Of a stretch of 64,000 bases of DNA, positions 3,329 to 52,566 are shown piece by piece (the stretch's first letter is position 1; each line of letters opens with the position of its first letter). Under the pieces are notes generated by a model. That model worked only from the letters and a program-made list of their open reading frames with translations. It was not told the DNA's origin and did no database searches. Origin of the DNA: Janibacter sp. Soil728 (GTDB taxonomy: Bacteria; Actinomycetota; Actinomycetes; Actinomycetales; Dermatophilaceae); assembly GCF_001428305.1 (NCBI RefSeq), contig NZ_LMRZ01000005.1, forward strand, positions 124,001-188,000. The letters run 5' to 3'. The position numbers were made by a program, and so were the translations under genes.

Positions 3329-3354
3329 CCTGCATTGCCCTAGGGCAATGCAGG
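3329..3354. repeat. ALP-stop palindrome, copy 1 (putative bidirectional terminator)
   Basis: A perfect 26-bp palindrome: half-site CCTGCATTGCCCT followed by its exact reverse complement, centre CCTAGG. It lies between the convergent genes for PPK2 and the AidB-like protein and contains the stop codon (TAG) of the latter. Four more copies occur in this window, all between convergent genes. As RNA from either strand it would fold into a strong hairpin, but no T-run follows. Confidence 0.85.
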
Positions 3355-5016
3355 ATTTGAGCGGGTGATCGCGGTGGCGCCGGAGAGGGTCACCAAGCCG
3401 GCGTCGAGGGTGCCGAAGCTCGCGCCCGTGGCCCCGCCCAGGCGCGAGGCGACGAAGGCCTCGGCCATCTCGGCGGGGGAGTGCAGCACCATCAGGCTCG
3501 CCTGGAGGGTCAGGGCCAGTCGCTCGACGAGCCGTCGCGCACCCATCGCGATGTCGGCGCCGTCCAGGGCCGCCAGGCCTGCGCAGTCGCGTTCGAGATC
3601 GTCCAGCGCCGCGTCGAGCACCGACAGATGGCCACGGGCCGTCGAGGCCTCCTTGAGCAGCGCCATGAGCGACGCCGGCTCGCGGGAGATCGCCCGCAGG
3701 ACGTCGAGCGCGTTGACATTGCCCGAGCCCTCCCAGATCGAGTTGAGCGGCGCCTGGCGGTAGAGCCGGGCCATGCCGTGCTCCTCGACGTAGCCGTTGC
3801 CGCCGAGGCACTCCATCGCCTCCGCGACGAAGGGGGAGGTGCGCTTGCACACCCAGTACTTGCCCACCGCCACCCCCAGGCGGGTCAGCTCGGTGTCGCC
3901 CTCGTCGAGGGCGTGCGCCAGGCGCAGCCCGAGCAGCGTGGCCGCCTCCGACTCCAGCGCGAGATCGGTGAGCACATTGCGCATGAGCGGTTGGTCGACC
4001 AAGGTCGCCCCGAAGGCTCGTCGGTGGCTCGTGTGGTGCACCGCGCGCGTCAGTGCGGCGCGCATCGTCGCGGCGGAGCCGAGCACGCAGTCCAACCTGG
4101 TGGCGGAGACCATCTCGATGATCGTGCGGACCCCCCTTCCCTCCTCTCCGACGAGCGCACCCCAGGTGCCGTCGAGCTCGATCTCGGAGGAGGCGTTGGA
4201 GCGGTCGCCGAGCTTGTCCTTCAGGCGCTGCAGGGCGAAGGGGTTGCGGCTCCCGTCCTCGAGGACGCGCGGGACGAGGAAGCAGCTCGGGGCCGCCTCG
4301 GGTGAGGTCTTGGCCAGGACGAGGAAGACATCGCTCATCGGCGCGGAGCAGAACCACTTGTGGCCGGTGAGCCGGTAGGTGTCACCGGTGAGCGGTCCGC
4401 CGGGGGTGCGCACGGCGAGCGTCGAGTTGGCGCGCACGTCCGACCCGCCCTGCTTCTCGGTCATCCCCATGCCGGCGATGGCACCCGCCTTGGTCTGCAC
4501 CTCCCGCAACCCGAAGTCGTACTCCCGGGAGGCGAGCTTGCCCTCCCAGCGGACGGCGAGCTCGGGGGAGTGACGAAGGGCGGGGACCGCCGCGTTGGTC
4601 ATGGTGATGGGGCAGATGTGCCCCGGCTCGACCTGGCTCCAGGTGACGAATCCTGCGGCTCGCCGCACGTGTGCGCCACTGGCCGGCGGCTGGGTCCACG
4701 GCACGGCGGTCAGACCGGCGCCGGCGGCGACGCTCATCAGCTCGTGCCACGCCGGGTCGAACTCCACCTCGTCGACGCGGTGGCCCCACCTGTCGTGGGT
4801 GACCAACCGCGGGGTGTTGCGCTGGGCGAGATCGGCCCACTGCTCGGCGCGCGACGAACCGGCCAGCTCGCCGAGAGCGGTCAGCTCGGTGATCGCCTCG
4901 TTGCGCTGCGGCATCGGGACCCAGCGGGTCACCCCTTCACTCAGGACCGGATCGCTGCCGAAGACGTCGTGACCGCCGTACGGCGGGACCTGGTTGGTGA
5001 CCTCATGCGTGGACAT
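3340..5016 (-). CDS. aidB: AidB-like acyl-CoA dehydrogenase family protein
   Basis: A 558-residue flavoprotein of the acyl-CoA dehydrogenase superfamily in the AidB subgroup. It closely follows the known AidB pattern: an N-terminal region with RVDEVEFDPAWHELM, then PITMT, GMGMTEKQGGSDV (about 183-193), GHKWFCSAPMSD, RLKDKLGDRSNASSE, VAEAMECLGGNGYVEE and NSIWEGSGNVNALDVLR. AidB of E. coli is an alkylation-response flavoprotein of debated function. The ATG at 5016 begins the conserved N-terminus; the longer frame runs through tRNA DNA. The last codons and the TAG stop are supplied by palindrome copy 1, giving a NPALP C-terminus. Confidence 0.85.
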   Translation of the reverse strand: MSTHEVTNQVPPYGGHDVFGSDPVLSEGVTRWVPMPQRNEAITELTALGELAGSSRAEQWADLAQRNTPRLVTHDRWGHRVDEVEFDPAWHELMSVAAGAGLTAVPWTQPPASGAHVRRAAGFVTWSQVEPGHICPITMTNAAVPALRHSPELAVRWEGKLASREYDFGLREVQTKAGAIAGMGMTEKQGGSDVRANSTLAVRTPGGPLTGDTYRLTGHKWFCSAPMSDVFLVLAKTSPEAAPSCFLVPRVLEDGSRNPFALQRLKDKLGDRSNASSEIELDGTWGALVGEEGRGVRTIIEMVSATRLDCVLGSAATMRAALTRAVHHTSHRRAFGATLVDQPLMRNVLTDLALESEAATLLGLRLAHALDEGDTELTRLGVAVGKYWVCKRTSPFVAEAMECLGGNGYVEEHGMARLYRQAPLNSIWEGSGNVNALDVLRAISREPASLMALLKEASTARGHLSVLDAALDDLERDCAGLAALDGADIAMGARRLVERLALTLQASLMVLHSPAEMAEAFVASRLGGATGASFGTLDAGLVTLSGATAITRSNPALP

Positions 5017-5072
5017 GACCGCACGATACGGGCCGGGCCAGGGCACCCGGGAGGTGGTCGTCGTGCCCGGGT

Positions 5073-5100
5073 TTGGAATCTGAGGATGCTCTGGGCTAAT
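5073..5100 (+). promoter_or_regulatory. Candidate promoter of first tRNA pair
   Basis: TTGGAA at 5073-5078 and GCTAAT at 5095-5100 are spaced by 16 bp, about 40 bp upstream of the first tRNA. The pair resembles a sigma-70 type promoter. It is an AT-richer patch in otherwise GC-rich DNA. Inference from spacing only. Confidence 0.4.
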
Positions 5101-5139
5101 CTCACCCAGCGCAGGCACGCAGTGATGTGGGCCTCGAGT

Positions 5140-5212
5140 GCGGATGTAGCTCAGTTGGTAGAGCGCAACCTTGCCAAGGTTGAGGTCGCCGGTTCGAACC
5201 CGGTCATCCGCT
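5140..5212 (+). tRNA. tRNA-Gly (GCC), copy 1
   Basis: A full cloverleaf of 73 nt: acceptor GCGGATG pairs with CATCCGC, T-arm GGTTCGAACCC, anticodon loop TTGCCAA giving anticodon GCC. CCA is not encoded. It is identical to the tRNA at 5512. Confidence 0.97.
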
Positions 5213-5254
5213 CGGACGGAACCTTCCTCTCGCAGGAGGTGCCGGGTACACCCC

Positions 5255-5329
5255 GGGCGATTGGCGCAGCGGTAGCGCGCTTCCCTGACACGGAAGAGGT
5301 CACTGGTTCGATCCCAGTATCGCCCACCA
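5255..5329 (+). tRNA. tRNA-Val (GAC), copy 1
   Basis: Acceptor GGGCGAT pairs with ATCGCCC. The anticodon loop CTGACAC gives GAC (valine). The 3' ACCA is encoded in the DNA. The gene is 43 bp after tRNA-Gly copy 1 and identical to the tRNA at 5706. Confidence 0.96.
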
Positions 5330-5439
5330 GCACGATCACGGCTCCGAGCTCGCGACAGCGACCCGGGGCCTTTGTCGTCCACGGGCGCGGGCCCTCGGGG
5401 CCTGACCCGCGCAGCCGACGCCACGCCGAGTGGGCCCGG

Positions 5440-5468
5440 TTGGGAGAGACGCCTCTCGATGGGTTAAT
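5440..5468 (+). promoter_or_regulatory. Candidate promoter of second tRNA set
   Basis: TTGGGA at 5440-5445, a 17-bp spacer, then GTTAAT at 5463-5468, about 43 bp before the second tRNA-Gly. It resembles the candidate promoter before the first pair (TTGGAA/GCTAAT), so the promoter may have been duplicated with the tRNAs. Confidence 0.4.
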
Positions 5469-5511
5469 GTTTCTCCTCGTGCCCCGGTTGCGCAAAGCGA
5501 CCTGGGGACAC

Positions 5512-5584
5512 GCGGATGTAGCTCAGTTGGTAGAGCGCAACCTTGCCAAGGTTGAGGTCGCCGGTTCGAACCCGGTCATCCGCT
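5512..5584 (+). tRNA. tRNA-Gly (GCC), copy 2
   Basis: 73 nt, sequence-identical to the tRNA-Gly at 5140, with anticodon GCC in a TTGCCAA loop. It leads the second cluster Gly-Cys-Val, an arrangement common in actinobacteria. Confidence 0.97.
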
Positions 5585-5607
5585 CGCAAGGTGAGACCAC
5601 CTTCGGT

Positions 5608-5678
5608 GGTGGAGTGGCCGAGAGGCGAGGCAACGGCCTGCAAAGCCGTCTACACGGGTTCAAATCCCGTCTCCACCT
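5608..5678 (+). tRNA. tRNA-Cys (GCA)
   Basis: 71 nt: acceptor GGTGGAG pairs with CTCCACC, anticodon loop CTGCAAA gives GCA (cysteine), T-arm GGGTTCAAATCCC. CCA is not encoded. It lies 23 bp after tRNA-Gly copy 2. Confidence 0.96.
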
Positions 5679-5705
5679 CGACCATGCAGATCGTGTGCAT
5701 GACCT

Positions 5706-5780
5706 GGGCGATTGGCGCAGCGGTAGCGCGCTTCCCTGACACGGAAGAGGTCACTGGTTCGATCCCAGTATCGCCCACCA
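5706..5780 (+). tRNA. tRNA-Val (GAC), copy 2
   Basis: 75 nt with encoded CCA, identical to the tRNA-Val at 5255. It ends the Gly-Cys-Val cluster and is followed within 10 bp by a strong hairpin. Confidence 0.96.
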
Positions 5781-5788
5781 GCACGACG

Positions 5789-5822
5789 AGGCCCCGGCCC
5801 GCGGAGACGCGGACCGGGGCCT
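5789..5822. terminator. Hairpin terminator after tRNA cluster
   Basis: AGGCCCCGG-C-CCGCG and CGCGG-A-CCGGGGCCT form a 14-bp stem with one mismatch around a GAGA tetraloop. It sits between the tRNA-Val and the 3' end of the convergent dehydrogenase gene, so it could serve both strands. There is no clear T-run. Confidence 0.65.
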
Positions 5823-5842
5823 TCGTGCACTCTGGGTGGCTT

Positions 5843-7219
5843 CTACCGGGCGGCCACGCGCACGAGCTTGCGGTTGACGAACTCGTTCATCCCGTCGGCG
5901 GCGAGCTCGCGTCCGTAGCCGGAGCGCTTGACCCCTCCGAAGGGCAGACCCGGCATGGTCGTGCCGTGCTCGTTGACGTAGGCCATGCCGACGTCGAGTC
6001 GGGCCGCGACCTTCGCGGCCTGCTCCGGGTGATCGCTCCACACGGACCCCGACAGGCCGAAGGGGGAGTCGTTGGCCTGCTCCAGCGCCGCGTCGACGTC
6101 GGTCATCCGGTAGACCATCACCACGGGCCCGAAGAGCTCCTCGGTCCACGCGCGCATGTCCGGGGTGATGCCGGTGAGCACCGTCGGTGCGTAGAAGGCT
6201 CCGGCCCGATCAACTGGTTGTCCGCCGGTGTGGACCGTGGCTCCCTTGCCGACGGCGTCCTGGACCTGCTCGTCGAGGTCGTCGCGTGCCTGCGTGGTGG
6301 ACATCGGTCCCATCCGGGTGTCCTCGTCCAGCGGGTCCCCGACCACGGTCGCCTCGACGTGACGGGTCAGTGCCGCGACGAAGTCGTCGTGGATCGCGTC
6401 CGCCACGAACATCCGTTTGGGGGAGTTGCACGCCTGACCGCAGTTGGACAGGCGCGCCCGGGCAGCCGTCTTGGCCATCGCGTCGATGTCAGCGGCGTCG
6501 AGCACGATCATCGCGTCGGACCCGCCCAGCTCGAGCACCGACTTGGTGAGATTCTCACCGGCCGACCTGCCGACCGCAGCGCCGGCCTGCTCGCTGCCGG
6601 TGAGTGAGACGCCCTGCACCCGTGGGTCGGCGATGACGTCAGGGATGATCTTGCTCGACGCGAGCAGATTGATGAAGCCACCCTCTGGCAGACCTGCCTG
6701 CAGCAGGATCTCCTCCATGAGGGCATTGGACCCGGCGCAGATCCCCGCGTGCTTGAGCAGGATCGTGTTGCCGAGCATGAGGTTCGGGGCAGCGAAGCGA
6801 GCCACCTGGTAGTAGGGGTAGTTCCACGGCATGACGCCGAGCAGGACGCCGACCGGCTCCTTGCGGACGACGCTGCGCAGGGCGCCCTGGGCCTCGAGCT
6901 CTTCCTCGGCGAGCAGCTCGGGGCCGTGGTCGGCGTACCACCGGTAGATCGACCCGGCGAGCCGGGCCTCCCCCTTCGCCTCCTTCAGCGGCTTGCCCAT
7001 CTCGATGGCGATCGCGCGGGCCAGCTCGTCGGCGCGCTCGTCGTACAGGTCAGCGGCGCGGCGCAGGACCTGGGCCCGTTCGTCCAGCGGCCGCTCGCGC
7101 CACTGCTCGTAGGCGCGGTGCGCTCGCTCGACTGCCGCGAGGGCACCGGCCCGGTCGACCTCGTCGAAGGTGCGCTCGATCTCACCGGTGGTCGGGTTCT
7201 CGGTGCGGTAGTTCGACAT
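5843..7219 (-). CDS. gabD1: NAD(P)-dependent succinate-semialdehyde dehydrogenase (GabD1-like)
   Basis: A 458-residue aldehyde dehydrogenase. It shows the catalytic cysteine in NCGQACNSPKR (Cys about 264), the general-base glutamate in VLELGGSD (Glu about 230), the PWNYPYYQ substrate/cofactor segment and a C-terminal PFGGVKRSGYGRE. The short length and the GQxC context match the GabD1-type succinate-semialdehyde dehydrogenases of actinobacteria, which oxidise succinate semialdehyde to succinate; the exact substrate is not proven. The start MSNYRTENP at 7219 has a GGA-type ribosome site upstream, and the longer open frame beyond it is the shadow of the ATP-grasp gene. Confidence 0.8.
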   Translation of the reverse strand: MSNYRTENPTTGEIERTFDEVDRAGALAAVERAHRAYEQWRERPLDERAQVLRRAADLYDERADELARAIAIEMGKPLKEAKGEARLAGSIYRWYADHGPELLAEEELEAQGALRSVVRKEPVGVLLGVMPWNYPYYQVARFAAPNLMLGNTILLKHAGICAGSNALMEEILLQAGLPEGGFINLLASSKIIPDVIADPRVQGVSLTGSEQAGAAVGRSAGENLTKSVLELGGSDAMIVLDAADIDAMAKTAARARLSNCGQACNSPKRMFVADAIHDDFVAALTRHVEATVVGDPLDEDTRMGPMSTTQARDDLDEQVQDAVGKGATVHTGGQPVDRAGAFYAPTVLTGITPDMRAWTEELFGPVVMVYRMTDVDAALEQANDSPFGLSGSVWSDHPEQAAKVAARLDVGMAYVNEHGTTMPGLPFGGVKRSGYGRELAADGMNEFVNRKLVRVAAR

Positions 7220-7247
7220 GGAGTCCTCTCTTGGTGTTGGTCCAAGT

Positions 7248-7261
7248 GTGCCTCGAGGCAC
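7248..7261. promoter_or_regulatory. 14-bp palindrome in divergent promoter region
   Basis: GTGCCTCGAGGCAC is a perfect palindrome. It lies in the 129-bp gap between the divergent aldehyde dehydrogenase and ATP-grasp genes. A second imperfect dyad, CTTGG-N7-CCAAG, is at 7230-7246. Either could be an operator; no local regulator gene is evident. Confidence 0.3.
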
Positions 7262-7348
7262 TACCCCGGCCCTCTCAGCACATGCGCGCGCCCCGCATCG
7301 TCTCGACGTGCGGTGTGTGGAAGGAGGGAGAGTGGGTACGGGGGCCTC

Positions 7349-8647
7349 ATGACACGAAATGTCTTCGTCCTGGGCCTGACCCCCCTGCAACGAGAGGAGC
7401 TCGCCACCGTCCACGAGAGCGGTGACCTGCAGTTCCACGACCTGCTCGACCACGAGACCCTCGTCGAGACCGAGGAGATCGACTTCGACGCACTGCTCGA
7501 CCGGGCGCGCGCCCAGCTCGACGCCTTCGACGGGAGCGTCGACGCCATCGTCAGTCACTGGGACTTCCCGACCTCGGTGCTCGGGCCCGTGCTGGCCGCT
7601 GAGCGTGGGCTGCCCGCGCCGTCGCTGACGAGCCTGCTCAAGCTGGAGCACAAGTACTGGAGCCGGCTCGAGCAACGTCAGGCCGTGCCCGAGGTCGTGC
7701 CCGGCTTCGTGGCCTTCGACCCCTTCGCCGATGACGTCGCCGAGCAGATCGATCTCGACTTCCCCTACTGGGTCAAGCCGATCAAGGGCCACTCGTCCAA
7801 CCTCGGCTTCGAGATCAGGGACGATGCCGACCTCTTGGCGGCACTGGAGGAGATCCGTGCCGAGATCACCGATGTCGGAGACGCCTTCGACCAGGTGCTG
7901 GCGCGCGTCGACCTGCCCGAGGAGCTGCACGGTCTCGGTGGATCGGCGTGTCTCGCGGAGGAGATCATCACCGGCACGCAGTTCGCGCCCGAGGGGAGTG
8001 TGTCCGGGGGCCAGTTCGCCGTCCACGGCGTCGTGGACATGCTCAAGGCCGAGAGCGGGCTGAGCATCGAGCGGATCGACTACCCGGCGGCCACCGTGCC
8101 GGAGCACGTCCAGCAGCAGGCTCGCGACGTCACGGCCCGCCTGCTCGAGCACATCGGGTTCGACGACGGTTGCTTCAACTCCGAGTTCATGTGGGACGAG
8201 GAGCGCCAGGAGTTGCGCATCATCGAGGTCAACACCCGCATCTCGCAGTCGCACAGCGAGATGTTCGCCCTCGTCGACGGCCGGTCCAACCACCAGGTCG
8301 CCGTGGACGTCGCGCTGGGGCATGCACCCTGTATGCCGAAGGGGGACGGGGACCTCACCGTCGCCGCCCAGTACGTGGTGGCTCACGAGGGCGACGCGAT
8401 CGTCCGGGGGATCCCCGGCGACTCCGTGCTGGAGCAGATCGCCGAGCGGTACCCCGGGACCAGGATCACCTTTCCCGTCGCAGTGGGAGATCGCCTGTCC
8501 GAGCTCCCGCACCAGGACTCCTACCGCTACCTGCTGGCCATCGTCTACGTCGGTGCGCCCGACCGTGAGGCACTGCAGGAGCGGATCCACGACATCGAGC
8601 AGGTGCTGCAGTTCGACCTGGAGGACTGCAGCGAAGGGAGTGCATGA
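7349..8647 (+). CDS. ATP-grasp domain protein (carboxylate-amine ligase-like)
   Basis: A 432-residue protein with an ATP-grasp fold. The N-terminal third looks like a pre-ATP-grasp Rossmann-like domain. The ATP-grasp core contains FPYWVKPIKGHSSNLGF (about 140-156), a glutamate-rich hinge (CLAEEIITG) and the metal-binding end NSEFMWDEERQELRIIEVN with RISQSHSEMF. Such enzymes ligate a carboxylate to an amine or other nucleophile through an acyl phosphate; the substrate is unknown. The TGA stop is 4 bp before the ATG of the CocE-type hydrolase, which strongly suggests co-translation and a shared pathway. The start at 7349 is preceded by a purine-rich GGAGGGAG about 15 bp upstream. Confidence 0.82.
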   Translation: MTRNVFVLGLTPLQREELATVHESGDLQFHDLLDHETLVETEEIDFDALLDRARAQLDAFDGSVDAIVSHWDFPTSVLGPVLAAERGLPAPSLTSLLKLEHKYWSRLEQRQAVPEVVPGFVAFDPFADDVAEQIDLDFPYWVKPIKGHSSNLGFEIRDDADLLAALEEIRAEITDVGDAFDQVLARVDLPEELHGLGGSACLAEEIITGTQFAPEGSVSGGQFAVHGVVDMLKAESGLSIERIDYPAATVPEHVQQQARDVTARLLEHIGFDDGCFNSEFMWDEERQELRIIEVNTRISQSHSEMFALVDGRSNHQVAVDVALGHAPCMPKGDGDLTVAAQYVVAHEGDAIVRGIPGDSVLEQIAERYPGTRITFPVAVGDRLSELPHQDSYRYLLAIVYVGAPDREALQERIHDIEQVLQFDLEDCSEGSA

Positions 8648-8651
8648 GCGT

Positions 8652-36474: not shown

Positions 36475-37386
36475 GTGGTCCGGGTGCTGGAGGGTGCGGC
36501 GGTGTCACTCCACCGGACGTCGATGGGCCGCGCCGTGCGCGAGCTGAGGCATCGGCGGGGCCTGACGGTGCGGCAGCTGGCGCACCAGATCGGCGTGAGC
36601 ATCGGCACCGTCAGTGCGATCGAGAACGGCCGCGTCGGCATCTCGTCCGAGCGTGTCGTGACCCTGGCCGACGCGCTCGGTGTGCGTGCTGATCGCCTGC
36701 TCGTCGGCATCGCGGAACCGATCCGTGACGAGCGCTGGGGTGTCGCCGCGGGGGACTCCGCGCAGGCGGGTGTGGGGGACTGGCGTCACTACGAGCCACT
36801 CGAGCTGCACCCTGCGCTGAGAGGTGCGCTGGCGAGCTTTCTCGAGCTGGGCTACCACGGGTCGACGATGCGCGGCGTGGCCGAGCGCGCCGGCCTCTCG
36901 GTCGCCGGTCTCTATCACCACTACTCGAGCAAGCAGCAGCTCCTCGTGACGATCCTCGACACGACGATGGAAGAGCTGCAGCTGCGCACCACTGCGGCCG
37001 TCGCGACGACGGACGACCCGTGGACCCGCTTCGCTGTCCTCGTCGAGTGCCAGGCGCTCTTCCACAGCCACCGGCGCGAGCTGGGCTTCATCGGCGCGAC
37101 CGAGATGCGCAGCCTGGCGGGGCCGGCACGCGAGCGGATCGCTCACGCGCGCCGAGAGGAGCAGGCTCGGATCGACTCCGAGGTCCTGGCCGGCTGCCTG
37201 AACGGGGCCTTCGGCACGCCCCGTCCTCGAGAGGCGGCTCGGGCCGTGGTGACGATGTGCACCGCCATCCCGCAGTGGTACCGGCACGGTGGGGACTCAT
37301 CGCCGGAGCAGGTCGCTGCCTCCTATGTCGACTTCGCTCTCGACCTCGTGCAGTGCGACCCGGCCAAGCGGCCCCAGGGCGACTGA
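36475..37386 (+). CDS. XRE-TetR fusion transcriptional regulator
   Basis: A 303-residue protein with two DNA-binding domains. An XRE helix-turn-helix occupies about 17-75 (LTVRQLAHQIGVSIGTVSAIENG). A TetR helix-turn-helix follows at about 110-158 (STMRGVAERAGLSVAGLYHHYSSKQQLL). A TetR-type ligand-binding helical domain fills the rest. Such fusions are uncommon relative to single-domain forms. It is divergent from the cyclase-ligase-kinase-dehydrogenase operon and probably senses its substrate or a CoA ester. GTG 36475 follows a GGGAGGAAGG site; ATG 36523 would lose no domain. Its stop is 44 bp before palindrome copy 2a. Confidence 0.85.
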   Translation: MVRVLEGAAVSLHRTSMGRAVRELRHRRGLTVRQLAHQIGVSIGTVSAIENGRVGISSERVVTLADALGVRADRLLVGIAEPIRDERWGVAAGDSAQAGVGDWRHYEPLELHPALRGALASFLELGYHGSTMRGVAERAGLSVAGLYHHYSSKQQLLVTILDTTMEELQLRTTAAVATTDDPWTRFAVLVECQALFHSHRRELGFIGATEMRSLAGPARERIAHARREEQARIDSEVLAGCLNGAFGTPRPREAARAVVTMCTAIPQWYRHGGDSSPEQVAASYVDFALDLVQCDPAKRPQGD

Positions 37387-37429: not shown

Positions 37430-37453
37430 CTGCATTGCCCTAGGGCAATGCAG
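37430..37453. repeat. ALP-stop palindrome, copy 2a
   Basis: A perfect 24-bp palindrome (half-site CTGCATTGCCCT) between the convergent XRE-TetR and TetR genes. Its centre is 41 bp from that of copy 2b. The spacer begins ACGAACGG, as does the spacer of the other tandem pair at 52.5 kb. Confidence 0.88.
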
Positions 37454-37468
37454 ACGAACGGCAACGAA

Positions 37469-37496
37469 ACCTGCATTGCCCTAGGGCAATGCAGGT
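37469..37496. repeat. ALP-stop palindrome, copy 2b
   Basis: A perfect 28-bp palindrome: the 24-bp core plus two flanking pairs (half-site ACCTGCATTGCCCT). Its last base is the last base of the TetR stop codon. Unlike three other gene ends at these elements, the TetR frame stops at the edge and not at the inner TAG. Confidence 0.88.
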
Positions 37497-38170
37497 CAGT
37501 CGGAGGGGCGCTTCCAGGCGATCTTGATGCCGGACCACGCGAGGTTGGTCAGCTGGTCGGTGAGCTCCTCACGGGAGAAGTCCCCGGCGAGGCCGACGAG
37601 CCAGGCATCGGCGCCGGCACGGACCAGGCCGACGAGGGAATGGCCCCACAGGCGGGCAGGTGCCGGGTCATTGCCCCGGTCGACGAAGGCGGCCGCGATG
37701 AGGTCGCTGATCTGACCAGCCATCCTGCCGGTCGCGTTGGCGACTGCCTCGGCGGCGTTGCCGGACGTGGTGCCGCCGACGATGGGGGCGGAGACGATGA
37801 AGCGGTAGAGCTCGGGGTCGCGCTCGACGAGCTGGAGATAGGCGTCGATCGCCGCACGGATGACCGCCTGTGGGTCGAGGTCGAGGGCGCTCAGGCCCGC
37901 ACCCTTGGTGTTCTGCCCGAGGACCGTGCCGATGTCGCGCAGGATCAGCTCGTCGACGCGATCAGCAACCGCCTGGTAGAGGCCGTGCCGGTCGGTGAAG
38001 TGACGGTAGAAGACCGTCTTGGAGGTCCCTGCCTCGGAGGCGATCTCGTCCATGCCCACAGAAGCGCCCCGCGTGCGGATGGTGCGGATCGCCGATTCGA
38101 CGAGCGTCTTGCGTCGCTCTTGACGATGCGCCTCCCAGCGGGCGCTGCGGCCGTCGGTGGTGGTGCTCAC
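37496..38170 (-). CDS. TetR-family transcriptional regulator
   Basis: A 224-residue regulator. The helix-turn-helix is at about 25-68 (VGMDEIASEAGTSKTVFYRHFTDRHGLYQAV). The C-terminal ligand domain has several helices, with RFIVSAPIVGG and ARLWGHSLVGLVRAGADAWLVG. It is divergent from the thiolase operon, and a 35-bp inverted repeat lies between them starting 7 bp upstream of its GTG. It probably represses itself and the operon and is released by an acyl-CoA (inference from position). GTG 38170 gives the usual TetR length. Confidence 0.87.
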   Translation of the reverse strand: MSTTTDGRSARWEAHRQERRKTLVESAIRTIRTRGASVGMDEIASEAGTSKTVFYRHFTDRHGLYQAVADRVDELILRDIGTVLGQNTKGAGLSALDLDPQAVIRAAIDAYLQLVERDPELYRFIVSAPIVGGTTSGNAAEAVANATGRMAGQISDLIAAAFVDRGNDPAPARLWGHSLVGLVRAGADAWLVGLAGDFSREELTDQLTNLAWSGIKIAWKRPSD

Positions 38171-45902: not shown

Positions 45903-45926
45903 GGGCGGGTCGGCAGACGGGCGGAC

Positions 45927-46136
45927 TCAGCGCGACGGGAGGGTCGGCGGGCGCGGGACCCGAATGATCTTTCGTCGCAACCAGGCCCTCTCGATCCCGC
46001 TGAGATAGACGACTGTGCGGTGCAGCTCCCAGTGGCCGTACTCGGCGTGGTCGGTCAGCTCTTGGCGGATGGCAGCGCGTCCAGCGCCCCTGGGGAACTG
46101 GATGGTGCGGAACTCGTACTCGGGCATCAGTGCCAT
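45927..46136 (-). CDS. DUF5703 family protein
   Basis: A 69-residue protein matching small conserved actinobacterial proteins that begin with a PEYEFRTI-like strand and continue with RAAIRQELTDHAEYGHWELHR and a basic RRKIIRVPRP tail. ATG 46127 (MPEYEF) is an alternative and perhaps better start. Function unknown. It is convergent with the peptidase and divergent from the acidic protein 29 bp away. Confidence 0.65.
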   Translation of the reverse strand: MALMPEYEFRTIQFPRGAGRAAIRQELTDHAEYGHWELHRTVVYLSGIERAWLRRKIIRVPRPPTLPSR

Positions 46137-46165
46137 TGTGGCCCAAGGGCTGTAGCGTCAGGCCC

Positions 46166-46501
46166 ATGAGCGACCCGCGCCCCGCACTCAACCAGCTGAT
46201 CGCCGCCTTCGAGCGCCACCTCGAAGCCTCCTCCCAGCGTCGTGGCGAGGACGACCCGACGGTTGTCGCCGCCTACGAGGACCTGGCCGATGCCTTCGAG
46301 GCCTACGACGACGCCCTCCACGACGCGACCGGTGAGATGACGCCCCTTGTCGTCGTCGACGAGCAGTTCATGGTCGATGACGACGACGATGATGACTCTG
46401 ACGACGACTCGGATGACGACTACGACGACGACTCGGAGGACGACCAGACCTACTCCGGTCTGGACGGCGAGGACTACGACTCGGACGAGTCCAAGCGCTG
46501 A
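46166..46501 (+). CDS. Conserved acidic protein with Asp-rich tail
   Basis: A 111-residue protein. The N-terminal half (PRPALNQLIAAFERHLEA and DLADAFEAYDDALHD) is a predicted helical region conserved in actinobacteria, where it has sometimes been labelled a primosomal protein without evidence. The C-terminal third is almost entirely Asp, Ser and Glu, encoded by GAC/GAT runs at about 46374-46440. It could be flexible and metal- or cation-binding. No catalytic motif seen. Confidence 0.65.
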   Translation: MSDPRPALNQLIAAFERHLEASSQRRGEDDPTVVAAYEDLADAFEAYDDALHDATGEMTPLVVVDEQFMVDDDDDDDSDDDSDDDYDDDSEDDQTYSGLDGEDYDSDESKR

Positions 46502-46523
46502 GCCCCACCGGCCACGGTCCGAC

Positions 46524-47528
46524 TCACAGCCAGCCGGACCGCTTGAAGAGCCGGTAGAGCACGAGGCACAGCAGAGCCATCGCCAGCAGGGCGAGCGGGT
46601 AGCCGTAGTAGAACTCGCCATCACCGACGTGCACGCTCAGGGACAGCTCGGGCATGCCCTCGAAGTTCATCCCGTAGACACCGGCGATCATCGTCGCGAG
46701 CGCAGCCATCGCGGCCCACGCCGAGATCTTGCGCATGTCCTGGTTCTGCTGGACCCCGACCTGGGCGAGGTGGGCGCTCAGGACGTCGGACAGCAGCCGG
46801 TCCTGCGACTCGGTGTTGTCGTTGACGAGCGACAGGTGGTCGAACACGTCGCGGAAGAGCAGCCGGAGCTCCTCGCCGGGTACGGGGGTCGTGGGTCCGA
46901 CGAGCTGTGACAGCGGTCGGGCGAGCGGCTGCGCGGCTCGCTTGAACTCCAGGACCTCACGCTTGAGCGCGTAGATGTCACTGGTGTCGACGGTACGGCC
47001 GGAGGAGAAGACACTCGACTCGATCTCGTCGAGGTCGATCTGCAGCTCGTCCTCGATCTCGAGGTACTGGTCGACGACGAAGTCGATGATGGCGTGGAAG
47101 ACGCCCCACGGCCCGTGTCGCAGCGCGCCGTGGCCGTGCTCCTCGAGCCGGCTGCGCAGTCCTGCGAGGGGGCCGGCCTCGCCACGCCGGACGGTCACGA
47201 TGTAGTCGGGACCGACGAAGACCATGAGCTCCCCGGACTCCACGTCAGAGGTGGCCTCGACGTAGCGCAGCGGCCGCAGGACGACGAAGTGCACATCGCC
47301 GTAGCGCTCGATCTTGGGTCGTTGGTCGCCCTTGACCGAGTCCTCGACGGCGAGCCGGTGCAGGCCGAGCGCCCCTGAGACCTGGTCGAACGACTCCGCG
47401 GAGGGATCGCGCATGCCGATCCACAGGAAGTCCTGCGAGTCGCTCGCGCGGATCTCCTCGAGGGTTTGCCCGATGTCCTCGCAGGGCTGGCGGTGTCCTG
47501 CGCTGTAGCGGGCCTGGTCGACGATCAT
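46524..47528 (-). CDS. corA: CorA-family magnesium/cobalt transporter
   Basis: A 334-residue CorA-type channel. The large cytoplasmic N-terminal domain has RPKIERYGDVHFVVLRPL and a long stalk helix. Two C-terminal membrane helices follow, with the selectivity motif YGMNF between them (about 290-294) and a basic end RLFKRSGWL. It mediates divalent cation uptake. The start at 47528 gives a normal length. It is divergent from the phosphatase gene at 47578. Confidence 0.9.
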   Translation of the reverse strand: MIVDQARYSAGHRQPCEDIGQTLEEIRASDSQDFLWIGMRDPSAESFDQVSGALGLHRLAVEDSVKGDQRPKIERYGDVHFVVLRPLRYVEATSDVESGELMVFVGPDYIVTVRRGEAGPLAGLRSRLEEHGHGALRHGPWGVFHAIIDFVVDQYLEIEDELQIDLDEIESSVFSSGRTVDTSDIYALKREVLEFKRAAQPLARPLSQLVGPTTPVPGEELRLLFRDVFDHLSLVNDNTESQDRLLSDVLSAHLAQVGVQQNQDMRKISAWAAMAALATMIAGVYGMNFEGMPELSLSVHVGDGEFYYGYPLALLAMALLCLVLYRLFKRSGWL

Positions 47529-47577
47529 CCCGGCATCGTCTCAGGCCCACTCGGGTCGGGCGCCTAAGGTGGTTGGC

Positions 47578-48294
47578 GTGGCGTACTGCATCCTCATCCG
47601 GCACGGGCGGTCGACCGCCAACACCCAAGGTGTCCTCGCGGGCTGGACGGAGGGTGTCGCCCTCGACGAGACCGGGATCGAGCAGGCCGCAGCGCTCGTC
47701 GACCGGCTCGACGGCACGCCCCTCGTGCACCTCGCGACCTCACCGCTCCAACGGTGCCGCGAGACGGCCGAGCCTCTGCTCGGTGCCCACGGCCTCGGGG
47801 CCCAGGTCCACGAAGGCCTGGGGGAGTGCCGCTACGGGGCGTGGACCGGCCGCTCGCTGAAGGAGCTCGTCAAGGAGCCGCTGTGGCGCACCGTCCAGGA
47901 CACCCCGAGCAAGGCCGTCTTCCCCGATGGCGAGACCTTCCCGGGGGAGTCGATCGCCGCGATGGCCGAGCGAGCCGTCGCGGCGATCCGTGAGATCGAC
48001 GCGGCGGTCAGCAAGGAGCACGGCGCGCACGCCGTCTGGGCGGCGGTCAGCCACGGTGACGTCATCAAGTCGATCATCGCCGACGCGGTGGGTACGCCGC
48101 TCGACGACTTCCAGCGCGTGCACGTCGACCCGGCTTCGATCTCCGTCGTGCACTACACGCAGTCGCGCCCGATGCTCTTGCGCAGCAACGACACCGGGAG
48201 CTCCTCCCTTCGTCCGCCGGTGCCGACGGCAGAGTCCACGACGGGCGGGGACGCCGCGGTCGGCGGGGGCGCGGGGCTAGGGTCGGGGTCATGA
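47578..48294 (+). CDS. Histidine phosphatase, MSMEG_4193 family
   Basis: A 238-residue phosphoglycerate-mutase-like phosphatase. The phospho-histidine motif LIRHGRSTANTQG is at about 5-17, and the second catalytic His is in VWAAVSHGDVIK. The C-terminal 40 residues are low-complexity and glycine-rich. In actinobacteria this family is consistently the first gene of a cluster with DUF3090 and SCO1664-type genes, as here. GTG 47578 begins the conserved AYCILIRHG. The stop overlaps the DUF3090 start (ATGA). Confidence 0.87.
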   Translation: MAYCILIRHGRSTANTQGVLAGWTEGVALDETGIEQAAALVDRLDGTPLVHLATSPLQRCRETAEPLLGAHGLGAQVHEGLGECRYGAWTGRSLKELVKEPLWRTVQDTPSKAVFPDGETFPGESIAAMAERAVAAIREIDAAVSKEHGAHAVWAAVSHGDVIKSIIADAVGTPLDDFQRVHVDPASISVVHYTQSRPMLLRSNDTGSSSLRPPVPTAESTTGGDAAVGGGAGLGSGS

Positions 48295-48818
48295 CCGTCG
48301 TCGAGTTCGACCCTCCGGAGCGCTTCGTGCTGGGCACGGTGGGCCCCGCCGGACAGCGCACCTTCTTCCTCCAGGCCAGCGACGGCACGCGCCGCGTGCA
48401 GGTCGCCCTCGAGAAGTTGCACGCGCAGGTGCTAGCGGAGCGGATTGGTGAGCTGCTCGACCAGGTCGCCGGGCGGGAGGCCACGATCGCTGCCGCGGCC
48501 GCAGCGGCGGACAACGCCCCGCTGGACACGCCCATCTCCGAGGACTTCCGGGTCAGCGCACTCGCGCTGTCCTGGGACGACGACCGGCACGTCGTGCTCA
48601 TCGAGGCGCACGACCACGACCCCGATGAGATCGACGAGCTCGACCCGACGCAGGAGCACAGCACCTTGCGTGCCTGGCTCCCGCCCGCCCAGGCCCGCGC
48701 CTTCGCCCGCCGCTGCGAGACCGTCGTGCGCGCCGGACGACCGCCCTGCCCCTTCTGCGGCGGTCCGGTCGACGAGAGCGGGCACATCTGTCCCCGAGCC
48801 AACGGCTACAAGCGCTGA
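48291..48818 (+). CDS. DUF3090 family protein
   Basis: A 175-residue conserved actinobacterial protein (DUF3090/TIGR03847 pattern). The N-terminal strands FDPPERFVLGTVGPAGQRTF (in two parts) and VALEKLHAQVLAERI are followed by a C-terminal zinc ribbon CPFCGGPVDESGHICP, whose Cys-x2-Cys could bind zinc with the later Cys/His. Role unknown. It is overlapped by the phosphatase gene and sits 3 bp before the SCO1664-type gene, indicating one operon. Confidence 0.85.
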   Translation: MTVVEFDPPERFVLGTVGPAGQRTFFLQASDGTRRVQVALEKLHAQVLAERIGELLDQVAGREATIAAAAAAADNAPLDTPISEDFRVSALALSWDDDRHVVLIEAHDHDPDEIDELDPTQEHSTLRAWLPPAQARAFARRCETVVRAGRPPCPFCGGPVDESGHICPRANGYKR

Positions 48819-48821
48819 CCC

Positions 48822-49610
48822 GTGGGTACGCCCCCTTCCCTCGCCGCCGGTGAGCTCGTCATCCTCGGCCGTCACCCGCTCGCGAGCAATGTCGTGCTCG
48901 TCGGTGAGGTGCGTCGTGCCGGCGCGCCCGCGGTGACGGTCGCCTACAAGCCCGTGGACGGGGAGCGCCCGCTCTGGGACTTCCCCGACGGCACCCTGGC
49001 TGCCCGCGAGGTCGCGGCGGCGCGGATCAGTGATCTCGGGGGCTTCGACCTCGTGCCCGAGACGGTCTGGCGCGACGGTCCGGCCGGTCCCGGAGCGGTG
49101 CAGCGATGGATCGGCGAGGTGACCAGCCTGTGCCCTACGCCGGTCGCCGTGACCCCGCCCCACGCCGTCCCCGCCGGCAACCTCGTGGTCCTGGAGGGCG
49201 AGGACGAAGGGGGCGCCCCCCTCCACCTCTCGCACCCCGACGACCCTCGCCTGCGATCGATGGCCGTCCTGGATGCGGTCCTCAACAACTCTGACCGCAA
49301 GGGTGGTCACCTCCTGCTCCACGACGGCCGCCTCTGGGGGATCGACCACGGGGTGGGGCTGAGCGCCGAGCCCAAGCTGCGCACGGTGCTGTGGGGGTGG
49401 GCCGGTGAGCCGATCCCGCAGGAGGATCTGGCCCGGCTCACCCGTCTGGCAGGAGCGCTGGAGCGCGAAGACGTGGTCGCCGAGCTCGGTGTCCTGCTCA
49501 CCTCCCTCGAGGTGGATGCCCTGGGCGCGCGGGCGGAGTCCCTGCTGACGGCAGGCACGCACCCTGAGCCCTCCGGGGAGTGGCCAGCCATCCCGTGGCC
49601 ACCGCTGTGA
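48822..49610 (+). CDS. SCO1664-family protein (PI3/4-kinase-like fold)
   Basis: A 262-residue protein matching the SCO1664/TIGR03843 family. The segment LDAVLNNSDRKGGHLLL (about 150-166) followed by LWGIDHGVGL (about 172-181) resembles the catalytic and metal loops (HxD/N and DHG) of phosphatidylinositol 3/4-kinase-like folds. VAYKPVDGERPLWDFP near residue 45 may supply the ATP-binding lysine. Kinase activity is not established. It is conserved next to mshC, which starts 23 bp downstream. Confidence 0.82.
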   Translation: MGTPPSLAAGELVILGRHPLASNVVLVGEVRRAGAPAVTVAYKPVDGERPLWDFPDGTLAAREVAAARISDLGGFDLVPETVWRDGPAGPGAVQRWIGEVTSLCPTPVAVTPPHAVPAGNLVVLEGEDEGGAPLHLSHPDDPRLRSMAVLDAVLNNSDRKGGHLLLHDGRLWGIDHGVGLSAEPKLRTVLWGWAGEPIPQEDLARLTRLAGALEREDVVAELGVLLTSLEVDALGARAESLLTAGTHPEPSGEWPAIPWPPL

Positions 49611-49633
49611 CCGGGACCTCGTAGGCTGTCCGC

Positions 49634-50875
49634 GTGAGAGCCTGGCCGACCCCCAACCTTCCCGTCATCCCCGGAGAGCCCATCTCCCTTCGCCTGCATG
49701 ATGTGGCGCGCGGTGAGGTGGCACCGGTCGAGGCTGCCGACCCCGCCCGCCTCTACGTCTGTGGCGTGACGCCCTACGACACCACCCACATGGGCCATGC
49801 TGCGACCTATGTGACCTTCGACCTCGTGGGCCGCGCGCTGCGGGACGGCGGCCGAGCGGTCACCTACGTGCAAAATGTCACCGATGTCGACGACCCGCTC
49901 TTCGAGCGCGCCGCTCGCGACGGCGTCGACTGGCGGGACCTGGGCCAGGACCAGATCGCCCTCTTCCTCGAGGACATGACCGCGCTCGGCGTGATCCCGC
50001 CGGAGCACTTCATGGGTGTCATGGAGTCGATGCCCGTGATCATCGACGCCGTGCAGGGGCTCGTCGACCGTGGTGTCACCTACGAGGTCGTCGAGGACGG
50101 GATCCGTGACACCTATCTCGACCTGGCCGCAGCAGGAGGCCTCGGGGAGCTGAGCCACCTCAGCCGCGAGACCATGCTCGAGTTCTCTGCCGAGCGAGGC
50201 GGAGACCCGCAGCGCACCGGCAAGCGCGACCCTCTCGACCCGATGCTGTGGCGCGGTGAGCGTGACGGCGAGCCCGCTTGGGACGCAGGCGCGCTCGGCC
50301 GTGGCCGACCCGGTTGGCACATCGAGTGCACGGCGATCGCGATGGAGCACCTCGGTGACCGCATCGACGTGCAGGGCGGCGGCACCGACCTCGTCTTCCC
50401 CCATCACGAGATGTCGGTCGTGCAGGCCGAGGCGCTCACGGGGGAACGGCCCTTCGCGGCGCACACGACGCACCAGGCGATGGTCGCCTACGACGGCGAG
50501 AAGATGAGCAAGTCCAAGGGCAACCTCGTGCGCGTCTCGACGCTGCGCGGCCAGGGCGTGGACCCGATGGCGATCCGGCTCGTGCTGCTGGCGCACCACT
50601 ACCGCGGTGAGTGGGAGTGGACCGACGCCGACCTGACGACGGCGCAGGAGCGACTCGCGCGCTGGCGCTCTGGGCTGTCGACCGACGGCGGCCCTGACGC
50701 GAGTGAGGCTGTCGCCGCAGTGCGCGCTGCGCTGGCCGATGACCTCGACACCCCGACGGCGCTGGCGGCCGTCGATGCGTGGGCGGAGCGGTCGCTCAGC
50801 TCTGGTGGCGACGTGCGCTCAGCACCCGGCGAGCTCGCCCGGGCGATCGACGCGCTGCTGGGCATCCGCCTCTGA
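49634..50875 (+). CDS. mshC: Mycothiol ligase MshC
   Basis: A 413-residue class I tRNA-synthetase-like ligase that joins cysteine to 1-D-myo-inosityl 2-amino-2-deoxy-glucopyranoside, the third enzyme step of mycothiol synthesis. It has LYVCGVTPYDTTHMGHA (zinc Cys and HIGH-type motif, about 36-52), GWHIECTAIAM (zinc ligand region), FPHHEMS and the KMSKS-type EKMSKSKGN (about 290). The N-terminal MRAWPTPNLPVIPG and absence of the cysteinyl-tRNA synthetase anticodon domain separate it from CysS. GTG 49634 starts at the conserved MRAW. Confidence 0.94.
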   Translation: MRAWPTPNLPVIPGEPISLRLHDVARGEVAPVEAADPARLYVCGVTPYDTTHMGHAATYVTFDLVGRALRDGGRAVTYVQNVTDVDDPLFERAARDGVDWRDLGQDQIALFLEDMTALGVIPPEHFMGVMESMPVIIDAVQGLVDRGVTYEVVEDGIRDTYLDLAAAGGLGELSHLSRETMLEFSAERGGDPQRTGKRDPLDPMLWRGERDGEPAWDAGALGRGRPGWHIECTAIAMEHLGDRIDVQGGGTDLVFPHHEMSVVQAEALTGERPFAAHTTHQAMVAYDGEKMSKSKGNLVRVSTLRGQGVDPMAIRLVLLAHHYRGEWEWTDADLTTAQERLARWRSGLSTDGGPDASEAVAAVRAALADDLDTPTALAAVDAWAERSLSSGGDVRSAPGELARAIDALLGIRL

Positions 50876-50907
50876 GGCGCTGACCCGGCCCGGCACTCGT
50901 CGGCGGG

Positions 50908-51765
50908 TCAGGTGGGGCCAGCGGTGTCGCCGCCTCGGCGGCGCAGGTAGCGCTCGAACTCCTTGGCGATCGCGTCGCCACTGGCCTCGGGCAGCTCAGA
51001 GGTGTCCTGCGCGCTCTCGAGCGCGGAGACGTACTCGGCGACGTCCTCGTCGGTGCTGGCGAGCTCATCGACTCCGCGCTCCCAGGCACGGGTCTCGTCC
51101 TCGAGCTCGCCGTGCTCGATGACCGTGTCGAGGAGGTCCTCGAGCTGGACGAGCAGGGCGAGCGATGCCTTGGGGCAGGGGACCTGCGAGGCATAGTGCG
51201 GAACGGCCGCCCAGGCGGAGATCGAGATCATCTCGGCCTGCACCGCCCCGTCCGCGACCACGCCGGTGATGCCGGTGGGGCCCTCGTAGCGCGCCGGCTC
51301 GAGCTCGTGACGGTAGGCGGTGGCCTCGTCCTCGCTGGAGCAGGTGACGGGGATCGGCCGCGTGTGGGCGACATCGGCCAGCAGGGCCCCCAGAGTGATC
51401 ACCGTCGTCACGCCGTGGGAGGCCGCGAGGTCGAGGATCTCGGCCGTGAAGGCCCGCCAGCGGAAGGAGGGCTCGATCCCCGTCACGAGGAGCACGTCCC
51501 GACCCAGGCTGTCGGGCGAGGCGAGCAGGATGCGGGTGGTGTTCCAGTGGAGGCCACGCCCCTGGCCCTGGTTGATGACCCGGGGTCGGGTGACCTGGAA
51601 GTCGTAGTAGTCCTCGGGATCGACTGCAGCCACGGTCTCGGCGTCCCAGAGGTCGCCCAGGTGCTCGATGACCCGTGAGGCGGCCTCGCCGGCGTCGTTC
51701 CAGCCCTCGAAGGCACAGATCATCACGGGGTCGTGCAGCTCGGGCAGGTCCTCGATCTCGATCAC
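50908..51765 (-). CDS. PAC2-family protein
   Basis: A 285-residue protein of the PAC2 group (PF09754), related to eukaryotic proteasome assembly chaperone 2. MICAFEGWNDAGEAASRVIEHL (in two parts, about 15-36), LVTGIEPSFRWRAF and ITLGALLADVAHTRPIPVT are family signatures. Its function in actinobacteria is unknown, but it commonly sits near proteasome and mshC genes, as here. GTG 51765 begins IEIEDLPEL. It is divergent from the HAD gene with 35 bp between starts. Confidence 0.85.
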   Translation of the reverse strand: MIEIEDLPELHDPVMICAFEGWNDAGEAASRVIEHLGDLWDAETVAAVDPEDYYDFQVTRPRVINQGQGRGLHWNTTRILLASPDSLGRDVLLVTGIEPSFRWRAFTAEILDLAASHGVTTVITLGALLADVAHTRPIPVTCSSEDEATAYRHELEPARYEGPTGITGVVADGAVQAEMISISAWAAVPHYASQVPCPKASLALLVQLEDLLDTVIEHGELEDETRAWERGVDELASTDEDVAEYVSALESAQDTSELPEASGDAIAKEFERYLRRRGGDTAGPT

Positions 51766-51800
51766 ACCCACCAGCCTACGTCGGGCTACCGTGTGGCCTT

Positions 51801-52511
51801 GTGAGCACTGTGAGCCCCGCGCCGAAGTCGCGCGATCTGCCGGCAGCCGTCCTGTGGGACATGGACGGCACCCTCGTCGACACGGAGCCCTACTGGATGC
51901 GTGCCGAGCACGAGCTCGTCGAGGAGTTCGGGGGGACTTGGACCCACGACCTGGCCATCCAGCTCGTCGGCAACCCGTTGCTCGTCTCGGCACAGTTCAT
52001 CCTCGATCACTCACCGGTCGACCTCACTCCTGAGGAGGTCGTCCACCGGCTCCAGTCGCGGGTCATCGAGCAGATCGCCGACGAGGTGCCGTGGCGACCC
52101 GGGGCCCGCGAGCTGCTGGCCGCCTGCCGCGAGGCGGACATCCCCTCGGCGCTGGTGACGATGTCGTGGACGGACCTGGCGCAGGCCGTCGTCGACGCGA
52201 CCGACCCCGGCTCCTTCGGTCTCGTGGTCTCGGGTGACCTCGTCACCCACGGCAAGCCGCACCCTGAGCCGTACCTGACGGCTGCTGCCCAGCTGGGCGT
52301 CGAGCCCGCCGCCTGCGTCGCCATCGAGGACTCGCCGACGGGTGTCCGCTCGGCCGTCGCCGCAGGCGTGCCGACCCTGGCCGTCCCGCACGTCGTCGAG
52401 GTCCCGGCCATCGACGGCGCGGTGCCGCTGACCACGCTGGTGGGGGTCACCCCCTTCGACCTCGTCCCACTCGCCACCGGCGCGCACGAACCCACGTCTG
52501 CATTGCCCTAG
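51801..52511 (+). CDS. HAD-family phosphatase
   Basis: A 236-residue HAD hydrolase of the phosphoglycolate/sugar-phosphatase type. Motif I is in LWDMDGTLVDTEPYW (about 19-33), motif II is the MSW region, the motif III lysine is in THGKPHPEPYL and motif IV is in AIEDSPTGVRSA. A small helical cap lies between motifs I and II. Substrate unknown. The C-terminus HEPTSALP and the TAG stop come from palindrome copy 3a, so the present C-terminus was probably set by insertion or evolution of that element (inference). Confidence 0.86.
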   Translation: MSTVSPAPKSRDLPAAVLWDMDGTLVDTEPYWMRAEHELVEEFGGTWTHDLAIQLVGNPLLVSAQFILDHSPVDLTPEEVVHRLQSRVIEQIADEVPWRPGARELLAACREADIPSALVTMSWTDLAQAVVDATDPGSFGLVVSGDLVTHGKPHPEPYLTAAAQLGVEPAACVAIEDSPTGVRSAVAAGVPTLAVPHVVEVPAIDGAVPLTTLVGVTPFDLVPLATGAHEPTSALP

Positions 52512-52524
52512 GGCAATGCAGACG
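52495..52524. repeat. ALP-stop palindrome, copy 3a
   Basis: A perfect 30-bp palindrome: the 24-bp core plus CGT...ACG flanks. It contains the HAD gene stop (TAG at 52509-52511) at its centre. The following spacer begins ACGAACGG, the same eight bases that follow copy 2a. Confidence 0.88.
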
Positions 52525-52544
52525 AACGGTACGTGGGAGGGCCG

Positions 52545-52566
52545 TGCATTGCCCTAGGGCAATGCA
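52545..52566. repeat. ALP-stop palindrome, copy 3b
   Basis: A perfect 22-bp palindrome (half-site TGCATTGCCCT), centre 46 bp from copy 3a. It contains the stop codon of the RecB-type nuclease gene on the minus strand. Confidence 0.88.

Follow-up and report, generated by a model that had tools for sequence, protein, structure and literature searches.

What are the five identical, perfect palindromes that lie between genes in a 64,000-nucleotide stretch of the Janibacter sp. Soil728 genome (assembly GCF_001428305.1, contig NZ_LMRZ01000005.1, positions 124,001 to 188,000, referred to here as the window), and what accounts for their presence there? We find that they are one species' dialect of a family of pseudo-palindromic DNA sites of about 22 bp, and that the same loci in other Janibacter species hold different repeats. 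Such sites also flank a gene for a predicted AbiEi-like winged-helix protein with a nuclease domain. The best reading, for which we regard the case as evenly poised, is that the palindromes resemble repetitive extragenic palindromes (REPs) and are bound, and perhaps spread, by this protein. Among the papers listed by searches of an open-access library, we found none that describes these repeats or a link between them and the gene.

A first-pass annotation of the window had reported five copies, each perfect over at least 22 bp, with none elsewhere in the 64 kb, and our search bears this out. Here G000 denotes the genome that holds the window, and dialect A the version of the palindrome found in G000. 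Exact copies of the 22-bp palindrome TGCATTGCCCTAGGGCAATGCA occur at 3331-3352, 37431-37452, 37472-37493, 52499-52520 and 52545-52566; the window contains no further match within three mismatches, and 100 dinucleotide shuffles contained none. The limits of extended pairing in the earlier account (22 to 30 bp) are also correct, as follows.

3329..3354, no strand: palindromic site 1, dialect A, 26 bp perfect, with its 22-bp core at 3331-3352
37430..37453, no strand: palindromic site 2, 24 bp perfect
37469..37496, no strand: palindromic site 3, 28 bp perfect, 41 bp from site 2
52495..52524, no strand: palindromic site 4, 30 bp perfect
52545..52566, no strand: palindromic site 5, 22 bp perfect, 46 bp from site 4

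All 10 exact half-sites TGCATTGCC in the window fall within these five palindromes, and none stands alone. The idea of a DNA uptake sequence was rejected on the evidence of the window, in which half-sites are not over-represented outside pairs. An Rfam scan of the window returned six tRNAs only and no family at the palindromes. Some G000 copies continue, to one side or to both, into a 9-bp extension (CCGTTCGTC/GACGAACGG), for example at 37431-37461 of the window.

Across G000 as a whole (3.64 Mb in 10 contigs) there are 24 exact copies of TGCATTGCCCTAGGGCAATGCA and 142 matches within three mismatches, the 24 included, and the stem pattern GCATTGCC-NNNN-GGCAATGC matches 92 times; a control with the pattern reversed gave 0 in every one of these searches. 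Of 186 genomes of the family, 5 contain the exact 22-mer, all of them Janibacter, and it is present in named records of J. terrae, J. anophelis and J. limosus. The stem occurs in 7 of 16 Janibacter genomes and in 3 of 396 genomes sampled from the order, two of these being Janibacter and the other carrying a single copy. Copy number varies greatly among Janibacter species, and viral contigs yielded no exact match to the palindrome.

Other Janibacter species carry their own versions of the site. De novo counts gave 75 copies in 18 clusters per 400 kb for dialect B (GCAYGACCTYAAGGARATGC) in G061 and 34 copies in 20 clusters for dialect D (GCARRACCCTAGGGTYYTGC) in G063. Dialect E (GCATYTCCCCGGGGARATGC) is found at 10 copies per 80 kb in G054, dialect F (GCARGAGCCTAAGCAGYTGC) at 22 per 80 kb in G064, and another dialect at 8 per 80 kb in G053; in the dialect of G059, GTAG/CTAC is the central tetranucleotide. 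These dialects have a common scaffold, GCA-NNN-SC-NNNN-GS-NNN-TGC, to which the sites of G053 and G058 conform only in part. Matches to the scaffold were counted against triplet shuffles in G000 (58 versus 10.8), G061 (83 versus 9.8), G063 (56 versus 7.2), G059 (48 versus 8.0), G064 (24 versus 0.8), G054 (19 versus 1.4), G066 (9 versus 1.2), G060 (6 versus 1.2), G052 (4 versus 0.4), G053 (5 versus 2.4), G055 (2 versus 1.8), G056 (2 versus 1.2), G057 (4 versus 1.0) and G058 (3 versus 2.0); because the scaffold was derived from the same data, these counts describe it and are no independent test of it. The exact dialect B pattern is present in 6 of the 186 family genomes, all Janibacter. Foreign dialects occur as minor copies (five of B in G000, three of A in G061 and eight of A in G063), and in G054 dialects A and E are mixed in two arrays at exact 42-bp steps. 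On the single contig of G061, matches to the dialect B pattern are uneven between strands, 91 forward and 44 reverse.

Within arrays, the distance from centre to centre is often about 31, 42, 52 or 63 bp. The spacings are 32, 42-43 and 52 bp in G063 (n=14), 31-32 and 41-45 bp in G059 (n=16), 28, 32, 41-43, 62 and 84 bp in G064 (n=14), and 30-34 bp in 52 of 57 cases in G061, where the arrays resemble tandem duplications by their appearance. At a period of 10.5 bp the Rayleigh R is 0.97 for the 14 spacings of G063 and 0.88 for the 16 of G059, values reached by none of 2000 uniform draws. The spacers within G063 pairs are unlike in sequence, and most pairs are therefore not simple copies of one dimer. 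Spacing by whole helical turns points to a protein that reads double-stranded DNA.

The replacement of one dialect by another can be seen at orthologous loci. Synteny between G000 and G061 extends across about 270 kb, in aligned blocks that are mostly 87-95% identical, and at 7 of the 12 testable dialect A loci of G000 the orthologous interval of G061 holds a dialect B array (147214, 233119, 238920, 280974, where the G061 interval is 1.6 kb, 287249, 300374 and 353199). Two further loci, 298742 and 299863, lie within the enlarged and partly rearranged interval of 300374 and were left uncounted; with them the figure would be 9 of 12. No dialect B array is present in the G061 intervals at 150683, 285567 and 339450. 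A rough expectation, which depends on the positions taken as available, is 0.6-1.4 of 12 (P 3e-5 or smaller).

A search of the genes that lie between site clusters revealed homologous proteins in three species. The representative in G000 is given below.

G000 C1:798854-799798, outside the window: candidate partner gene, encoding a protein of about 310 amino acids and flanked by site pairs

Ten close homologues, defined as at least 44% identical to the G000 protein, were recovered from nine species of the genus (G000, G066, G063, G059, G057, G064, G061, G053, which has two, and G058). By profile, the product is predicted to combine an AbiEi-like winged helix-turn-helix with a nuclease domain of the Vsr/DUF559 type. 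The MTES_1575 restriction endonuclease (REase) domain matches 10 of 10 at E<=0.01, falling below the family's curated cut-off in G000; DUF559 matches 6 of 10 and is above its cut-off in G000. AbiEi_4 matches 4 of 10 at E<=0.01, G000 not among them, and three AbiEi models from PADLOC each match 9 of 10 at the same threshold. MTES_1575 is named as a Vsr-fold REase in an excerpt of PMC3710099. Five residues of the candidate protein are invariant in all ten homologues (E212, D242, E253, D255 and K259). We take these to be its nuclease residues.

Palindromic sites lie within 350 bp of the gene in every close homologue, and on both sides in 9 of 10. On the side of the start codon the nearest site is about 70-165 bp from the approximate start in all ten. 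The flanking dialect is the one dispersed in the same species in seven cases (G000, G066, G059, G063, G061, G064 and G053). As a control, 111 G000 genes of 750-1200 bp were examined for any 12-mer common to both flanks; 9 had at least one, and only the candidate gene had more than two. Protein and dialect also tend to change together. The G061 protein is only 53% identical to that of G000, though the adjoining DNA blocks are 91-95% identical, and is closest to that of G058 (61%), with which it has the half-site GCATCTCC in common. The most similar pair of proteins, G057 and G064 (81%), has the same dialect. Distances between proteins and between half-sites correlate with a Mantel rho of 0.32 (n=10), a value matched in 148 of 10000 permutations. 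In the winged helix, the residues between S30 and D33 are GH in dialects A and D, RR in G061 and G058, AH in G057 and G064, and DR and DT in the two G053 copies; from their sequence it is possible that these are specificity residues.

Several side observations concern this gene and its relatives. The second G053 copy lies between inverted repeats that hold the palindrome and a second palindrome, CCCTCACCGTGCAAGGTGAGGG, resembling transposon ends. At C1:330449-331828 of G061 a DDE_Tnp_1_4 transposase gene stands between two dialect B arrays and is possibly an insertion into a site array. The genus also contains 42 more distant matches to the protein, 20 of them with a locus and 18 measurable; at 14 of the 18, at least five 12-mers are shared between the flanks. 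The distant paralogues lack flanking sites of the GCA-N3 scaffold. Distant homologues at loci L237, L239, L226, L225 and L235 have other shared flanking repeats, such as TTCTCGGGTCACCCGA and AGGCGAGGTTTCTC, which are similar in several species. Searches for relatives of the protein gave 63 pattern matches in viral contigs, none confirmed by tblastn, none in phage records, and two weak hits of about 30% identity in plasmids. A sequence search of the PDB gave nothing significant, and the weakest of its three matches was the mobile intron protein 3r3p, through the nuclease domain (E 0.47).

The first-pass annotation had held the palindromes to be confined to convergent gene ends. The genes on either side of the window sites, called like all gene orientations here by a home-made gene caller, are listed with the stop codons that fall inside sites.

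2435..3325, + strand: PPK2 polyphosphate kinase gene, left of site 1 (PF03976)
3340..5016, - strand: AidB-like acyl-CoA dehydrogenase gene, right of and ending in site 1 (PF18158, PF00441)
3340..3342, - strand: TAG stop of the AidB-like acyl-CoA dehydrogenase gene, from the palindrome centre; protein ends NPALP
36475..37386, + strand: gene for a helix-turn-helix and TetR regulator, left of site 2
37496..38170, - strand: TetR regulator gene, right of site 3
51810..52511, + strand: HAD hydrolase gene, left of and ending in site 4
52509..52511, + strand: TAG stop of the HAD hydrolase gene, inside site 4; protein ends TSALP
52554..53411, - strand: PD-(D/E)XK superfamily gene (PDDEXK_1), right of and ending in site 5 (PF12705)
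52554..52556, - strand: TAG stop of the PD-(D/E)XK superfamily gene, inside site 5; protein ends SSALP

The last of these genes is distinct from the nuclease-domain gene proposed as partner. Within the window all three clusters do lie between facing genes, as had been described. Beyond the window, confinement gives way to an excess. Among 19 clusters in a contiguous 400-kb sample of G000 (C1:500001-900000), 8 lie at convergent junctions, 5 at tandem and 2 at divergent ones, and 4 fall inside genes, so that convergent junctions take 8 of the 15 intergenic clusters, compared with 57 of all 365 junctions (Fisher P 0.001). Genome-wide enrichment at convergent ends had been set beforehand as a test of the original proposal, and in this sample it is present without being exclusive. 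Four species and the window together comprise 78 clusters, of which 33 are convergent, 25 tandem and 7 divergent, with the other 13 inside genes; convergent junctions account for 33 of the 65 intergenic clusters against 267 of 1548 junctions (P 2e-9), and divergent junctions show no significant depletion of clusters (P 0.12).

Sites also enter coding sequence. Three of the six genes that flank the window sites terminate within a palindrome, with ...Ala-Leu-Pro-stop read from GCA TTG CCC TAG, a feature that the earlier account passed over; the palindrome centre is CTAG, which makes TAG available on both strands. The four intragenic loci of the 400-kb sample are all in frame and lie in genes for a SelB-type factor (where the copy reads LHSPMAMRGNAHSPRAMPVG), an HrpB-type helicase (GLHSPRAMQG) and two ABC transporters, to which Pfam assigns ABC domains and which we take to be CydC/CydD. 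One of the two ABC-transporter genes holds four tandem in-frame copies (HSPMAMQED...).

Other elements were noted in the same surroundings. Gaps and linkers of G000 (C1:671138-671206, C1:790949-791018) and G061 (C1:148632-148759) hold another dispersed family, CCCTGAGGAG...GTCTCGAAGGG, whose middle varies; in one case, the CydC-type linker of G061, it forms a tandem array that keeps the reading frame. At several places in C1:500001-900000 of G000 there are hairpins that read CGAAGGGGG...CCCCCTTCG, perhaps ordinary terminators, and CCCCCTTCG ranks with the commonest 12- or 14-mers of most Janibacter species sampled. At 5140-5777 of the window a cluster of five tRNA genes on the + strand lies between genes called on the opposite strand.

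How might these observations be explained together? We consider it probable that the sites are recognised by the AbiEi-like/nuclease protein; that its nuclease domain also spreads them is a more tentative proposal, to which we give somewhat less than an even chance. Under this scheme a dimeric chromosomal protein of about 310 amino acids would be the reader of the sites, its winged helix contacting the half-sites. The nuclease domain would cut or nick, and repair would then copy clusters of sites to new places. Survivors would be found only at harmless positions, namely 3' ends, especially convergent ones, and in-frame linkers, and the stop codons, perhaps with transcript ends, would be side effects of the spread. 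The whole would amount to a REP-like selfish site system with a nuclease in place of the REP-associated tyrosine transposase (RAYT). The roles first suggested for the palindromes included a protein-binding site and a small mobile palindrome, and the evidence favours these two jointly.

A number of observations weigh against this scheme. An active nuclease facing more than 100 uncut sites would require a protection step, and none was found. No insertion with target duplication was seen at the compared loci of G000 and G061; one G000 locus is nearly empty (3 bp versus 122 bp in G061) with no evident duplication, and at other loci entire intervals differ. Spacing in G000 has an R of only 0.52 at 10.5 bp, with a best-fitting period of 12.9; the best R over periods of 10, 10.5 and 11 is 0.57, reached by 1 of 2000 draws, which gives weak support for helical phasing. 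The G063 protein is 69% identical to that of G059, yet their dialects differ. Three genomes have dispersed copies but no close homologue was detected in them: G054, with dialects E and A and a best match of 36%; G065, with dialect B in an assembly that is 79% complete; and G060, with a small number of A copies. Conversely, G057 and G058 have flanking sites but 1 and 0 dispersed copies, respectively, of that dialect in the 80 kb sampled, and the flanking dialect of the second G053 gene copy was not counted elsewhere. Lastly, the flanking array of G061 lies on the promoter side only, as an operator would.

This last arrangement bears on a rather unlikely alternative, in which the AbiEi-like protein is a repressor or chromosome-organizing factor, the sites at its own gene are operators, the dispersed sites are a regulon or an architectural array, and the nuclease domain has no part in their spread. 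AbiEi, the winged-helix antitoxin and repressor of AbiE type IV toxin-antitoxin systems, binds to inverted repeats that stand upstream of the operon encoding it, and the Streptococcus agalactiae protein represses that operon through two such repeats (PMC3985639, in excerpt). The regular start-side site of all ten homologues suits an operator, and the retention of sites at orthologous loci despite the change of dialect is what a functional set would show. However, sites also lie downstream of the gene in 9 of 10 homologues, 46 of the 78 dispersed clusters are convergent or intragenic and have no promoter side, and copy number is very unequal among the species. Nor does the likeness to AbiEi extend to the whole Janibacter protein, whose N-terminus has the winged helix but whose C-terminal half matches the DUF559/MTES_1575 nuclease profiles, or to the sites, which are usually on both sides of the gene and are dispersed. 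We think it improbable, and more so than repression, that the sites are hairpin terminators, T-less and bidirectional, that are kept at gene ends. The convergent excess would fit, the copies of G000, G059, G063 and G054 fold as RNA better than random 40-mers, and outer stem positions covary in G000 (12-14) and G063 (12, 13, 17, 18 and 20), with 2-16 of 500 shuffles as high. Yet G059 shows no covariation of outer stem positions, and within the core the changes at position 5 of G000 and at positions 6 and 7 of G063 go uncompensated, while 2 of 34 copies in G059 have core position 5 altered on both sides. Folding is worse for dialect B than for random 40-mers (-9.7 and -10.4 versus -12.4 kcal/mol) and scarcely better than random for the G064 set (-13.1 and -12.2 versus -11.1), the sets for G064 and G054 here including all scaffold matches; since two dialects do not fold well, a hairpin, or termination, is not a shared property of the sites. 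There is no T tract after the stem (a mean of 1.0-2.6 T per 10 nt versus 1.4-1.5 in the genome), the 13 intragenic clusters would be out of place, and terminators require no common stem sequence. The T-less bidirectional terminator, also among the roles first suggested, fails as a general account in the face of in-frame copies and of the poorly folding dialects, although a copy at a convergent end may end transcripts incidentally.

By behaviour, the nearest known kind is the REP-RAYT system. REPs and bacterial interspersed mosaic elements (BIMEs) are small dispersed palindromes, often paired as dimers, at convergent and unidirectional gene 3' ends, where they supply TAG stops, and in frame within genes; in their GTAG group a gene is flanked by repeats (PMC3733652, in excerpt). 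The G000 counts given above also agree with their 20-40 bp palindromes in many copies. It is nevertheless very improbable that the sites are classical REPs or BIMEs, whether of the kind that a RAYT (Y1 HUH) transposase moves or of the CGTC-tagged kind, for which no transposase is known. REPs bear an unpaired GTAG or CGTC motif at one end. CGTC adjoins the core in a minority of G000 copies (9 of 37, 5 of them on one side only), which slightly favours the REP reading, but in only 1 of 34 copies in G059, and in 0 of 34 in G063 and 0 of 75 in G061; GTAG/CTAC is found beside the core in none of G000, G059, G063 and G061. A search for Y1_Tnp (PF01797) gave 0 matches in G000 at E 0.001, with the control positive in 5 of 14 genomes, which counts against a RAYT-driven REP in G000. 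With neither a general end tag nor a Y1 transposase in G000, we do not class the sites as REP-RAYT members. The flanked gene is also a different one, and the sites, unlike REPs, form one scaffold with replaceable triplets and near-helical spacing in two species.

Other known systems share single features with the Janibacter sites. Vsr-like DUF559 nucleases and EDxHD homing endonucleases have a nuclease domain related by profile. A homing gene disrupts its own site, whereas intact sites flank the Janibacter gene. Rickettsia palindromic elements (RPEs) are palindromes that lie in frame in coding genes, as some Janibacter sites do, but the Janibacter sites have phased arrays and a linked candidate protein, a comparison made by description and not by sequence. 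RPE-6 and RPE-4 are equated with CGTC REPs in an excerpt of PMC3733652. For Caulobacter VsrA, a DUF559-domain protein, an SOS response is reported in cells that lack a methyltransferase (excerpt of PMC12907096).

Returning to the reading that we prefer, we tentatively propose that a Vsr-family nuclease with an AbiEi-like winged helix, putatively solitary, scatters the palindromic site that it recognises across the chromosome, that its specificity drifts or is swapped by gene replacement, and that the set of sites is then overwritten in a new dialect. The wider protein family may do likewise with other sites. Dispersed small palindromes are usually tied to RAYT or to parent transposases, or have no known partner. 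The gene described here, flanked by sites that are mostly of its own genome's dialect, offers them a testable partner, and the sites in turn suggest what winged-helix/DUF559 proteins, a group of which little is understood, may do. The dialects would provide a natural series of changes in protein-DNA specificity, and in these bacteria small repeats would be rewriting gene ends, stop codons and protein linkers.

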